64,000 nucleotides of DNA from Permianibacter fluminis (GCF_013179735.1 NZ_JABMEG010000001.1:1-64000); one strand, 5' to 3'. Positions 2,321 through 8,324 are shown, counted from the first letter of the stretch. Notes: a model not told the origin generated them from the letters alone. A program made the numbers and translations.

Positions 2321-3067
2321 ATGCCACAAAGAAACGTGAAATACCTCGCCGTACTGCTCTGTTTTGGTTTGGCTGCATTCGCAGCCATTATTATCGATCC
2401 GGAGGAGCCAATCCGCGGCGGAATACCATCGTCAATTTCCTATCCTGCAACGTCATCCAGTGGGAATTATACGGTTAGTTGGGAGGCAGGCTCCCCTGCT
2501 GATTACTATGAGTTGTACGAGCAAGTTGGAAGTGCAGGCTACACGCTGATTGCAACAATTTGGTCGGGTAGCTTGCAGCAAAAATCGTTTTCAGGAAAGG
2601 CAAGTGGGACCTATTACTATCGGGTTCGAGCCTGTGTTGACGTGTGCAGCGCCTACAGAGCAGGTACTGCAATTGTCGTCTCAATATCGGTACCGCCAAC
2701 CTTATCGCTCTCAGCAAATGCGACACAAATCGATCCTGGCGCGTCTGTTACTTTAAATTACATCAGCAGTAATGCAACCGCTTGCTCAATCAATGGCGCT
2801 GGGGTTTCGCTGCCAAGCGGATCAAAAACATACTCAAATATTGTCAATACAACCAAATACACGCTTACGTGTAGCAACGCCGGCGCCTCTGCCAGCTCAT
2901 CAGTTACAGTCAATGTCAGACCCAATCCGCCAACAGGCCCGGTCACACAAACACTCTCATATGATGCATTGGGTCGACTGACATCCTCTCAAGAAACGAC
3001 AGGGCGGACGCAAGGCGTCACCTATGACGCAGTCGGAAATCGAACAAGCCAATCCGTTTCGCAGTAG
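2321..3067 (+). CDS. Secreted Fn3/Ig-like protein ending in two YD (RHS) repeats
   Basis: A 248-residue protein. An N-terminal hydrophobic signal segment (about residues 7-22) is followed by a fibronectin-III-like beta domain (about 30-120), an Ig-like domain with paired cysteines (about 125-205) and, at the extreme C-terminus, two YD repeats with the YDALGRL and YDAVGNR signatures. It ends directly after them. Small proteins of this build often sit just upstream of large Rhs genes. Here the next two genes are Rhs proteins on the same strand, so the three are probably co-expressed. No toxin domain is visible. Confidence 0.75.
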   Translation: MPQRNVKYLAVLLCFGLAAFAAIIIDPEEPIRGGIPSSISYPATSSSGNYTVSWEAGSPADYYELYEQVGSAGYTLIATIWSGSLQQKSFSGKASGTYYYRVRACVDVCSAYRAGTAIVVSISVPPTLSLSANATQIDPGASVTLNYISSNATACSINGAGVSLPSGSKTYSNIVNTTKYTLTCSNAGASASSSVTVNVRPNPPTGPVTQTLSYDALGRLTSSQETTGRTQGVTYDAVGNRTSQSVSQ

Positions 3068-3089
3068 AAAATGGTAAGAAGCTGCTAGA

Positions 3090-3110
3090 CGATCGTTGAA
3101 TCAACGATCG
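3090..3110. repeat. Perfect 10-bp inverted repeat
   Basis: Arms CGATCGTTGA and TCAACGATCG are separated by one base, in the gap between the first and second Rhs genes. There is no T-run, so it is not a standard intrinsic terminator. It could be a regulator site or an mRNA-processing hairpin. Confidence 0.6.
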
Positions 3111-3150
3111 GCATTTTCAACACTTAACTTTATTTCGGGGCAATTAGATT

Positions 3151-5118: not shown

Positions 5119-5137
5119 GCCGGTTGAGGTGTAGAGA

Positions 5138-7747
5138 ATGAATGTCTCCAAATTTTCGGCAGCTCTCTTCGCATGCGCTTGTGCAAATGTACATGCAGAA
5201 CAGACCGCGCAAAACAACATGCTTGCATACCGTTACGATCTTAGCGGGCAAAAGACCGCGGAAATAATGCCGGATGCAGACGGACAGGCGCCTTTCGAGT
5301 ATCTGGCCACAAGGTATACATATTATTCAGGCGTTCTTTCGAAAGTGGAGATGGGGACTCTTAGCAGTTTTCCCAGCGAGTCAATTGCCCCAAAAGACTG
5401 GGAAGCATTTGGCTACGCTTTTCTGGTTAGTAGATCCAGTCAAACGTCATATGACGACTTCGGACGAAAGGTATTTGAAAAATCATTTGACGGAACTGTA
5501 GGCATTTCAGCGGTACAGTACAGCTATGACCAAGACAGTCGAGTTCTCTGTAAAGCAGTACGAATGAATAAGAGTAATTTGGTGCTCAAGAATCTGCCTA
5601 ACGCATGCTTGCTGGGTGTTGAAGGCGTAGATGGCCCAGATCGAGTTAGCAAATATACCTACAACGGCTTTGACCAGATATTAACCGAGAAAAGAGCGGT
5701 TGGCACGGCGATTGAGCAAACCTATGTGGTTAATGAGTACTTTGACTACACCAATATCTTGCACTATCAAACGGATGCAAATGGCAACAGAACTCAACTG
5801 GAATACGATGATTTTAATCGACTTAGCGACAGATACTATCCATCCGCATCCGTCCTGGGTACGGCCAATTCTAATGATTATGAACACTATAGTTACGACG
5901 CAAACGGGAATTTGGCCTTTGAACGCAAGCGCAACGGTGCAAGTATTAATTATACCTATGATAACAATAACCGACTAATTTTTAAGGATTTTGACGCAGC
6001 CGGCAACGTGTATATCCCCGATACATATTACGATTATGATCTTCGAGGAAATTCGTTATACGCTAGATTTGGTAGCCAAACAGGTGAGGGGGTGACAAAC
6101 ACAGTTGACGGGTTTGGACGCGTAATATCAACAGCCTCGTCATTGGGCGGCGTTAATCGAGTATTGAATTACGGTTATGACAATAATGGAAATAGAACGA
6201 AAATTGTTCACGGAGATTCTTTGCAAATTATTTATAGGTTTGACCAACTGAATCGACCTTATGAGGTGGATGAGATATCTTCAGTAATCGCGAAGATGAC
6301 ATATAAAAAATCCGGCATGCCTGACGCGATCTTCAGAAACTATGATTCTGCGAATCAAACGTATTCCAGCAAGACTCAGTTTGATTACGAAAACGCTATC
6401 AGACTGACCTCACTGTCACACGACTTGAAGAACCTCGAATCTGATGTGTCATATGGCTTCAGCTATAACCCGGCAAATCAAATTACGCAGCAAACACTAA
6501 GTAACGGAAAGTACTACTTCAATGATTCCGTCGTGCAGAATGCGGCTTATGTGTCAAATGGATTGAATCAGTACTCATCAATCGCTGGTCAGATCTACAC
6601 CTATGATTCAGCAGGGAATTTGAAGAATGACGGCACTCTGACTTATCAATATGATGCTGAAAATCGTCTGGTAGGTGTAAGTGGGTTGCAGAGTGCAACC
6701 TTGAAGTACGACCCGCTCGGCCGTCTATACGAAACAATAGTAAATGGTCTTAAAACCAGTTTTCTGTATGATGGCAGCGCATTAGTTGCTGAATATGGCA
6801 GTAGCGGGGCGATGACTAAGCGGTATGTTCATGGCGTCGGGGTAGATACGCCTCTTTTGCAATACAATGGTTCAGCTACAGGAAAGACGAATTGGCGTTT
6901 TTTGTATGCCAACCATCAGGGGAGCATAGTCGCTCATGCAAGTTCCGATGGCTCGCTGCTTGCCTCACTCAGTTACGACAACTTTGGCAATCCGGGAGCG
7001 GGAAATGTGGATAGGTTTGGGTTTACTGGCCAGGCTTGGCTTAAGGAATTGAACCTCTATTACTACAAGGCGCGAATGTATTCTCCAAAGTTGGGCCGCT
7101 TCCTTCAAACAGACCCCGTCGGCTACAAAGATGACATGAATCTCTATGCATACGTGGGGAATGACCCAGTTAATAGGGTTGACCCAACCGGTAAGACCTG
7201 CGTCGGGACTGGAGTAAACCAGGGCTACACCTGCACGGTAGATAATGTGAATGGATTGACGCCAAAGCAGGTCCGATCGATGGAACGGTCCTATACGCGA
7301 GCGGTGAACCGGCTGATGTATCATCCGAATGCGAAGCAAACCATAACAGTAACAAACAATAAAACAGGCTTAAGCGGAACTATGACGGTGACGGCAAGGC
7401 AGGTCGCCAATGTTCTGATAAAGGCAAATGTTACTGGCTCCAACAAGCCACCTACTCCTGATACTAGAGCACAGACAGGTGGCGGCGCTCTTCAGACCAA
7501 CGGCAATATGGGCAACATTCAGATGACGATTTTCGACAATGCCTTGGTCTTCAACAGAAGTGGTGGCAAAACCGACATTAGCCGTGAGTTGACCAAAACA
7601 TTTATCCACGAAGGATTCCATGGGCTCCCCGATGAAGCCGTTATGCTTCCACAGTGGAATCAAAACTGGAGCGAGTTCCAAACCGATCACCAGACCCCCT
7701 ACAAAGGTGCTGGAGATGCCCTTTTTGCCGATCCAAATTTAAATTAG
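5138..7747 (+). CDS. Secreted Rhs core protein with C-terminal HExxH toxin tip
   Basis: An 869-residue protein. A short signal peptide (predicted cleavage after NVHA, residue about 20) leads into a long array of YD repeats (YDDFGR, YDANGN, YDNNGN and similar). The Rhs-associated core follows, with GRFLQTDPVGY and NLYAYVGNDPVN, ending in DPTG at about residues 682-685. The remaining about 184 residues are a variable tip. In it FIHEGFHG (H824, E825, H828) forms an HExxH zinc-peptidase motif, and a conserved-looking DHQTPY stretch lies near the end. In this family the tip is the toxic effector released from the shell. No PAAR or VgrG gene is nearby, and the signal peptide argues for Sec rather than T6SS export. 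A ribosome site (GAGG) precedes the ATG. Confidence 0.85.
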   Translation: MNVSKFSAALFACACANVHAEQTAQNNMLAYRYDLSGQKTAEIMPDADGQAPFEYLATRYTYYSGVLSKVEMGTLSSFPSESIAPKDWEAFGYAFLVSRSSQTSYDDFGRKVFEKSFDGTVGISAVQYSYDQDSRVLCKAVRMNKSNLVLKNLPNACLLGVEGVDGPDRVSKYTYNGFDQILTEKRAVGTAIEQTYVVNEYFDYTNILHYQTDANGNRTQLEYDDFNRLSDRYYPSASVLGTANSNDYEHYSYDANGNLAFERKRNGASINYTYDNNNRLIFKDFDAAGNVYIPDTYYDYDLRGNSLYARFGSQTGEGVTNTVDGFGRVISTASSLGGVNRVLNYGYDNNGNRTKIVHGDSLQIIYRFDQLNRPYEVDEISSVIAKMTYKKSGMPDAIFRNYDSANQTYSSKTQFDYENAIRLTSLSHDLKNLESDVSYGFSYNPANQITQQTLSNGKYYFNDSVVQNAAYVSNGLNQYSSIAGQIYTYDSAGNLKNDGTLTYQYDAENRLVGVSGLQSATLKYDPLGRLYETIVNGLKTSFLYDGSALVAEYGSSGAMTKRYVHGVGVDTPLLQYNGSATGKTNWRFLYANHQGSIVAHASSDGSLLASLSYDNFGNPGAGNVDRFGFTGQAWLKELNLYYYKARMYSPKLGRFLQTDPVGYKDDMNLYAYVGNDPVNRVDPTGKTCVGTGVNQGYTCTVDNVNGLTPKQVRSMERSYTRAVNRLMYHPNAKQTITVTNNKTGLSGTMTVTARQVANVLIKANVTGSNKPPTPDTRAQTGGGALQTNGNMGNIQMTIFDNALVFNRSGGKTDISRELTKTFIHEGFHGLPDEAVMLPQWNQNWSEFQTDHQTPYKGAGDALFADPNLN

Positions 7748-7757
7748 GTGGCAGACC

Positions 7758-8324
7758 ATGAAGCACTGTCTTTTTTTTCTCGCAGTTGTGTCGTATTCGG
7801 CTTGGTGCTGTGCCTTCGAAGTGGTGGCGCCGCAAACACACCAAGCTGGAGTTCCGATTAGTTGCAATGCTTTGGAAGATGAAAGCATATACAGAGAAAA
7901 AGGTCGGGAGAATATGTTGCTGGTATTCAACCGAAACTTAGAACTTTACAGCATCGTCGGCGAAAGCTATTTGAAACATAGGGACTGCCGGTATACAGAT
8001 ATAGGTGGATCGAATCAAAGTTGCTCAAATGTCGATTTTCATTGTGTATTCGGGTATTTCAATGTTGTTATGCCAAGAGTCCTTAATAGCTCTTCGTGGC
8101 ATCTCAAAGGAATTGATTGTCGCTTGATTGGTGAAATTGAAGATTCTAAAAGAGTGGCGGAATTTACCTGCAGCAAAGGGGGCGTCTCGATTATGGCTTC
8201 TTATTCAAAAGAAAGGGGAATTTTAAAATTTTCACAACTTTCTAAAGAAGCAAAGATGGAGTACTTCCTTGATGGCGAACGAGGGCTTTTTTCTGAACGA
8301 CAAAAGGATGATATAGATCCATAG
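7758..8324 (+). CDS. Exported small protein, candidate immunity protein of the Rhs toxin
   Basis: A 188-residue protein starting 10 bases after the Rhs gene, with a Shine-Dalgarno-like GGTGG. Residues 1-19 form a signal peptide (cleavage around WCCA-FEV). The Cys-rich mature part suggests disulfides in the periplasm. No lipobox is present because a Trp precedes the Cys. Position directly after the toxin tip is the classical place of the cognate immunity gene, and periplasmic location fits a toxin acting on the envelope. I do not recognise the family, so the immunity role is inferred from context only. AT-rich like the rest of the island. Confidence 0.65.
   Translation: MKHCLFFLAVVSYSAWCCAFEVVAPQTHQAGVPISCNALEDESIYREKGRENMLLVFNRNLELYSIVGESYLKHRDCRYTDIGGSNQSCSNVDFHCVFGYFNVVMPRVLNSSSWHLKGIDCRLIGEIEDSKRVAEFTCSKGGVSIMASYSKERGILKFSQLSKEAKMEYFLDGERGLFSERQKDDIDP

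Follow-up and report, generated by a model that had tools for sequence, protein, structure and literature searches.

The window considered here, the first 64,000 nucleotides of a 3.48-Mb contig of Permianibacter fluminis (GCF_013179735.1 NZ_JABMEG010000001.1:1-64000, starting at base 1 of the contig), carries at 2321-8324 an Rhs locus in which the shell protein is encoded in two adjacent frames, each opening with an export signal of its own. The same division recurs in 43 loci, always at the homologous position and accompanied by a new start, a signal-peptide-like head and a pair of cysteines at the cut end, and it looks like an old inherited design, not a broken gene. The locus probably encodes a Sec-exported Rhs polymorphic toxin, most likely antibacterial, whose two-chain shell would be assembled outside the cytoplasm.

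Organization of the split locus

An earlier reading of this DNA, made from the sequence alone and referred to below as the sequence-only reading, had placed three open reading frames (ORFs) at 2321-3067, 3151-5118 and 5138-7747 in an AT-rich setting. All three are present at exactly these coordinates, in an island with a GC content of 44-48% at 2001-8000 against about 60% past 9000. The features of the locus are as follows.

2321-3067 (+), companion protein of 248 residues, with a signal peptide, an Fn3-like plus Ig-like region and a C-terminal single YD-repeat pair
3151-5118 (+), Rhs shell N-half of 655 residues with a signal peptide, homologous to the N-terminal parts of fused Rhs proteins (profile A3 against Rhs cocoons in the PDB, E-value 3e-33)
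3151-3210 (+), N-half signal peptide MKARMLIPGVLLSCASANAA, read from the sequence without a trained predictor score
5044-5112 (+), split-specific cysteine pair C632 (codon 5044-5046) and C654 (codon 5110-5112), flanking the last N-half YD repeat
5119-5137 (+), intergenic gap of 19 nucleotides, with a ribosome-binding-site-like GAGG at 5126-5129
5138-7747 (+), Rhs shell C-half of 869 residues, with the Rhs core and a predicted toxic tip
5138-5197 (+), second signal peptide MNVSKFSAALFACACANVHA, called from its signal-peptide layout and a home-made score
6974-7192 (+), Rhs-associated core with DPVG...DPTG motifs (TIGR03696, E-value 1.4e-22)
7193-7744 (+), variable tip of 184 residues with an HEGFH motif at 7607-7621, a predicted zinc-metallopeptidase-like toxin domain
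7758-8324 (+), signal-peptide protein of 188 residues, a candidate periplasmic immunity protein by position and export signal

YD/RHS repeats (PF05593) were recognized by Pfam/NCBIfam in the 248-, 655- and 869-residue proteins, and the Rhs-associated core occupies residues 613-685 of the last. The DPxG motifs of this core are the autocleavage motif in known Rhs proteins. The 655-residue frame stops at 5118 directly past a YD repeat, which agrees with the earlier placing of the break inside a YD-repeat region, and the different frames, the new ribosome site (GAGG, 8 nucleotides 5' of the C-half ATG) and the signal peptide after 19 bases were likewise found as described. Of the proposed three exported chains of one Rhs locus, the export signals hold, while the first gene is a separate companion and not a third of the same chain; its YD repeats have a Pfam/NCBIfam match, and its Fn3/Ig region is recognized by eye only, without a Pfam match here. 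The 188-residue ORF 3' of the C-half also opens with a signal peptide.

Split and fused relatives

A search with the 655-residue protein alone gave no relative, whether among 296 genomes belonging to the order or in a pattern scan of genome contigs; relatives surfaced through the C-half and then through a junction profile. In genome G461, a relative of the 869-residue protein, 48% identical, likewise occupies a separate frame: the upstream frame ends in CYEYDKYGNRVGETSPRANLTTCL, and the next frame opens within a few bases and contains MTSNNLVVTLLLAASMVLAAPALAQ. The arrangement in G317 is alike. In plasmids of Sphingomonas aerolata and Asticcacaulis excentricus (L031 and L032), homologues of both halves share a single frame (1443 and 1514 codons), and the N-half is homologous over its length to the N-terminal part of such fused, signal-peptide-bearing Rhs proteins.

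The junction-side C-half profile (A1) was searched for in the phylum (399 genomes), in the order to which G461 belongs (246 genomes) and in two further families (201 and 144 genomes), and loci were picked by similarity to a seed of three split and two fused rows. This yielded 74 loci with the junction, of which 43 are split (window included), 29 fused and 2 unclear. Split loci occur in several families of two bacterial classes, all cut at the same YD repeat. The sequence-only reading had held the split to be designed rather than a simple frameshift, and this is strongly supported; its own ground for rejection, close relatives with one frame and only a recent disruption here, does not apply, for the fused relatives lie on the far side of one branch of the tree. 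Split and fused forms coexist in five genomes (G865, G937, G818, G1020 and G1239), in places 6-26 kb apart.

At the break itself, the N-half of each of the 43 split loci terminates in a YD repeat with a short tail behind it, and the C-half start is found -10 to +36 nucleotides away from the N-half stop. Each of the 43 C-halves has a start codon and, by a heuristic score, a signal-peptide-like segment at its head. Ahead of the junction, the 12-residue stretch of highest hydrophobicity has a mean of at least 1.71 in split and at most 1.33 in fused forms, with no overlap. In the fused forms a short linker at the junction, which reads DGPLPGxxD in most, takes the place of the stop and start codons, the signal peptide and the cysteine pair.

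A cysteine pair at the cut end

In all 43 split N-halves, the last YD repeat carries a cysteine at its beginning (mostly TCYxYD), and another is among the seven C-terminal residues. The 29 fused proteins contain no cysteine at all over the 40 residues that lead up to the junction and the 8 that follow it. In the window these split-specific residues are C632 and C654, and they probably form a disulphide staple that ties down the new C-terminus of the N-half. A disulphide at the cut end would need an oxidising compartment. Other cysteines are invariant in split and fused forms alike, namely C512, C586 and C596 of the N-half and, in the aligned C-half, C118 and C137.

Origin of the split

In a maximum-likelihood tree of the C-part, from which the junction columns were excluded, the 40 split rows occupy one side of one branch (bootstrap 82; Shimodaira-Hasegawa-like approximate likelihood ratio test (SH-aLRT) 94), and the clade covers two classes of the phylum, that of the window being one. 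The split/fused state requires 1 change on this tree, against 22 with shuffled labels, and one change in 81% of bootstrap trees. Because the split rows form one clade, a single old fission is the best reading, short of proof. Multiple origins of the split were tested as well, and the C-part tree does not need them.

Evidence bearing on a proposed joint shell

The N-half profile A3 matches solved Rhs cocoons, namely Tre23 (7pq5, E-value 3e-33), Tse5 and residues 310-557 of 8h8a, and the C-half, in a single-sequence search, matches the later part of the same chains (8h8a residues 602-1151). As YD repeats can align out of register, the cocoon positions are approximate, and their order is consistent. 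The break would thus fall within one shell wall. Divergence of the N- and C-halves is correlated among split loci (Mantel r 0.33, p 0.001). We infer that the two halves assemble outside the cytoplasm into one cocoon, which fits their constant pairing, the matches to consecutive parts of single-chain cocoons and the precedent of TcB and TcC, in which an Rhs shell is made from two separately encoded chains with the toxin tip on the second (PMC11067744).

Tips and downstream genes

The tips past the Rhs core differ among loci, with HExxH, HNH-like and GIY-YIG-like motifs, and some are shared across lineages. The window's tip is homologous to that of a locus in another lineage (L134, E-value 6e-7), and it has no match in plasmids. 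HExxH peptidase tips have been described among Rhs toxins by Zhang et al., with Sec/type II export as a route (PMC3482391). An exported protein is encoded downstream of all 10 HExxH tips (window included), but only one of the 18 remaining tips has such a neighbour (Fisher p 8e-7); downstream signal-peptide and lipoprotein signals were called by eye, and the tips, of about four families, are not all independent. Hydrophobic tips rich in glycine and alanine tend to be followed by small membrane proteins, nuclease-like ones by soluble proteins; in a relative, one GIY-YIG-like tip is followed by Imm26. Such a match between tip and downstream gene is the toxin/immunity pattern that would be expected if peptidase tips act in the periplasm. 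The 188-residue protein, which has no Pfam/NCBIfam name, is accordingly placed here as a candidate periplasmic immunity protein. In a fused relative (L067), an apparent HINT/intein-like domain was seen by eye between the Rhs core and the tip.

The companion protein

The companion, encoded by a neighbour of the Rhs shell genes, combines a variable adhesive region with a single 'YxYDALGRL...YDxAGNR' pair and has an export signal. It stands beside 18 of the 30 split loci with long flanks (17 of 29 others by pattern, and the window by eye) and also at 6 of 13 fused loci; because it is present at fused loci too, it is probably older than the split. Companions in relatives match fn3, Big_9, Cadherin, Calx-beta or B_lectin, and the constant YD pair may dock the companion on the shell.

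Delivery

The sequence-only reading had found no type VI secretion system (T6SS) genes nearby, and the absence of such a system is supported. VipA/TssB has no match in the window's own genome; it is absent from 24 of the 38 split-bearing genomes, including all 15 of the second class, and present in only 14. No PAAR domain was found by the Pfam/NCBIfam scan of the locus proteins. The secretin GspD, on the other hand, scores over the curated cut-off in the window's own genome and in 30 of the 38. Bcn-A, a secreted single-chain Rhs bacteriocin of Xanthomonas, loses activity in an xpsD mutant (PMC7259588), and since it needs XpsD, type II secretion would be the first candidate route in genomes that have it.

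At L032 (10279-14001), L035 (101-7152) and G1349 (C3:53708-55468), such Rhs genes have type II secretion or pseudopilin-like genes no more than a few kb away. A dedicated exporter near Rhs genes of this kind is possible.

Proposed mechanism

Each chain would cross the inner membrane through Sec by its own signal peptide, after which the two would fold and join in the periplasm, a disulphide closing the cut end of the N-half. Inside the joined shell would lie the variable C-half tip, in the window a predicted HExxH peptidase, which the Rhs core is expected to release there by cleavage. From the periplasm the complex is probably carried across the outer membrane without a T6SS, through type II secretion or something similar. 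The YD pair of the 248-residue companion probably serves to dock it on the shell, to which it would bring an adhesive domain, and the 188-residue exported protein would guard the producer's own periplasm.

Weighing the interpretations

Several results weigh against joint assembly of two exported chains into a secreted toxin. Single-sequence AlphaFold2 models of each chain have a mean predicted local distance difference test (pLDDT) score of 31.5 and 31.0, and no interface is supported. The correlation between the halves is weaker in split than in fused forms (r 0.74 in the latter), so halves may be exchanged between loci. The N-part tree is poorly resolved, with long branches, and requires 2 changes instead of 1. 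Signal peptides were judged by a simple home-made script, not SignalP; the window's tip is without a named family in Pfam/NCBIfam; and 8 of the 38 split-bearing genomes are without GspD above the curated cut-off, for which reason type II secretion as the obligatory or sole exporter has been dropped. The lack of a joint model and the looser covariation would also suit exported proteins that act apart, the C-half, whose frames of about 850-900 residues contain many YD repeats, forming its own shell or stalk and the N-half serving as a chaperone, cap or receptor-binding partner, with no joint cocoon. However, both halves can be aligned, in the right order, to a single fused chain and to successive stretches of known cocoons, and no signal-peptide-bearing C-half without an adjacent N-half was found in 45 non-fused loci, so that separate action seems unlikely.

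The remaining alternatives have fared worse. Fused relatives do exist, as would be expected had a once-fused gene been broken here by frameshift or partial deletion and begun to decay; yet a break, start, signal-peptide-like head and cysteine pair shared by 43 loci, in one clade over two classes, and the length and openness of both frames make decay scarcely credible. Stop/start overlaps of -10 or -4, common in one class where the other has gaps, could be taken for readthrough or programmed frameshifting that gives one chain, the hydrophobic segment then being a transmembrane insertion in the shell. Programmed frameshifting is disfavoured because all three frame relations between the halves occur (20, 11 and 8 loci), and given also gaps of up to +36 nucleotides and the start codon and signal-peptide layout at every head, a single-chain product is very improbable. 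An adhesin or wall protein would account for companions with Ig, cadherin, Fn3 or lectin domains but not for the polymorphic tips and a downstream gene that varies to fit the tip type, and must be considered a poor prospect. The two-chain Rhs shell is also the plan of the toxin complexes (Tc) of TcB/TcC type directed against eukaryotic cells (PMC11067744), a class to which this locus is most unlikely to belong, since the N-half has no SpvB/TcdB Pfam domain (RHS_repeat only), no TcA-like gene is found among the ORFs adjoining the locus, and the immunity-like downstream genes point to bacterial targets.

Relation to known systems

The locus shares with the T6SS Rhs effectors (Rhs1/Tre23, Tse5 and RhsA) the YD cocoon match, the DPxG Rhs core and the variable tip, and differs from them in having no PAAR/VgrG part, no TssB in the genome, Sec-type signals and two chains. 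The secreted single-chain Rhs bacteriocins (Bcn-A and the WapA type) resemble it in combining a secreted Rhs/YD protein with a downstream immunity gene (PMC7259588), which here is a candidate; theirs is one chain, whereas this locus has two separate frames, two signal peptides and a terminal cysteine pair. The fused Sec-exported Rhs proteins of the Sphingomonas aerolata and Asticcacaulis plasmids carry homologues of both halves in one frame. Unlike TcB/TcC, both chains bear Sec-type signals; fused Rhs proteins, rather than TcB/TcC, were the homologues from which the position of the break was taken. The family is supported as secreted Rhs toxins in a two-chain variant, and the observation and principal inference of the sequence-only reading stand. 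That it is a distinct Rhs class, with two Sec-exported chains, a periplasmic cocoon, a split-born disulphide staple and an interchangeable adhesive third subunit attached by one YD pair, a T6SS-independent parallel to Tc, is about as likely as not. No description of an exported two-chain Rhs form was found in open papers, subscription papers and preprints being outside the scope.

Genomic surroundings

An inverted repeat, CGATCGTTGAATCAACGATCG, lies at 3085-3115 between the companion and N-half genes and is a possible regulatory hairpin; promoter scans were at chance level and terminator scans near chance. The island is flanked by two exact direct repeats (1-300 = 9691-9990; 945-1217 = 10109-10381), the left copies of which are separated by an extra ORF at 412-903 (-). 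The repeat at 10109-10381 is the 3' part of a D12-class adenine methyltransferase gene, present as a full copy at 10109-11077 (-). A gene resembling polyhydroxyalkanoate (PHA) synthase adjoins the island at 8343-9627; its start region is seemingly absent, it has an in-frame TGA near 8605, and it is probably a pseudogene left by insertion. Phage and viral collections gave weak or partial matches only, and a phage origin is unsupported. Four more Rhs regions, of other types, occur on contig C1 of the same genome (306213, 712594-714999, 1209354 and 1418586), including open frames of 1465-2684 codons.

Biological implications

Rhs effectors of solved structure consist of one chain, which folds round its own toxin and is loaded on a T6SS; the two-chain exception is TcB-TcC. 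An exported two-chain form that is widespread, if true, would mean that the shell can close after the inner membrane has been crossed, and the split may leave the tip without its shell while in the cytoplasm or ease the passage of a large barrel through Sec. The two-chain form would offer a clear test of when the cocoon closes, and the companion family may set the choice of target.

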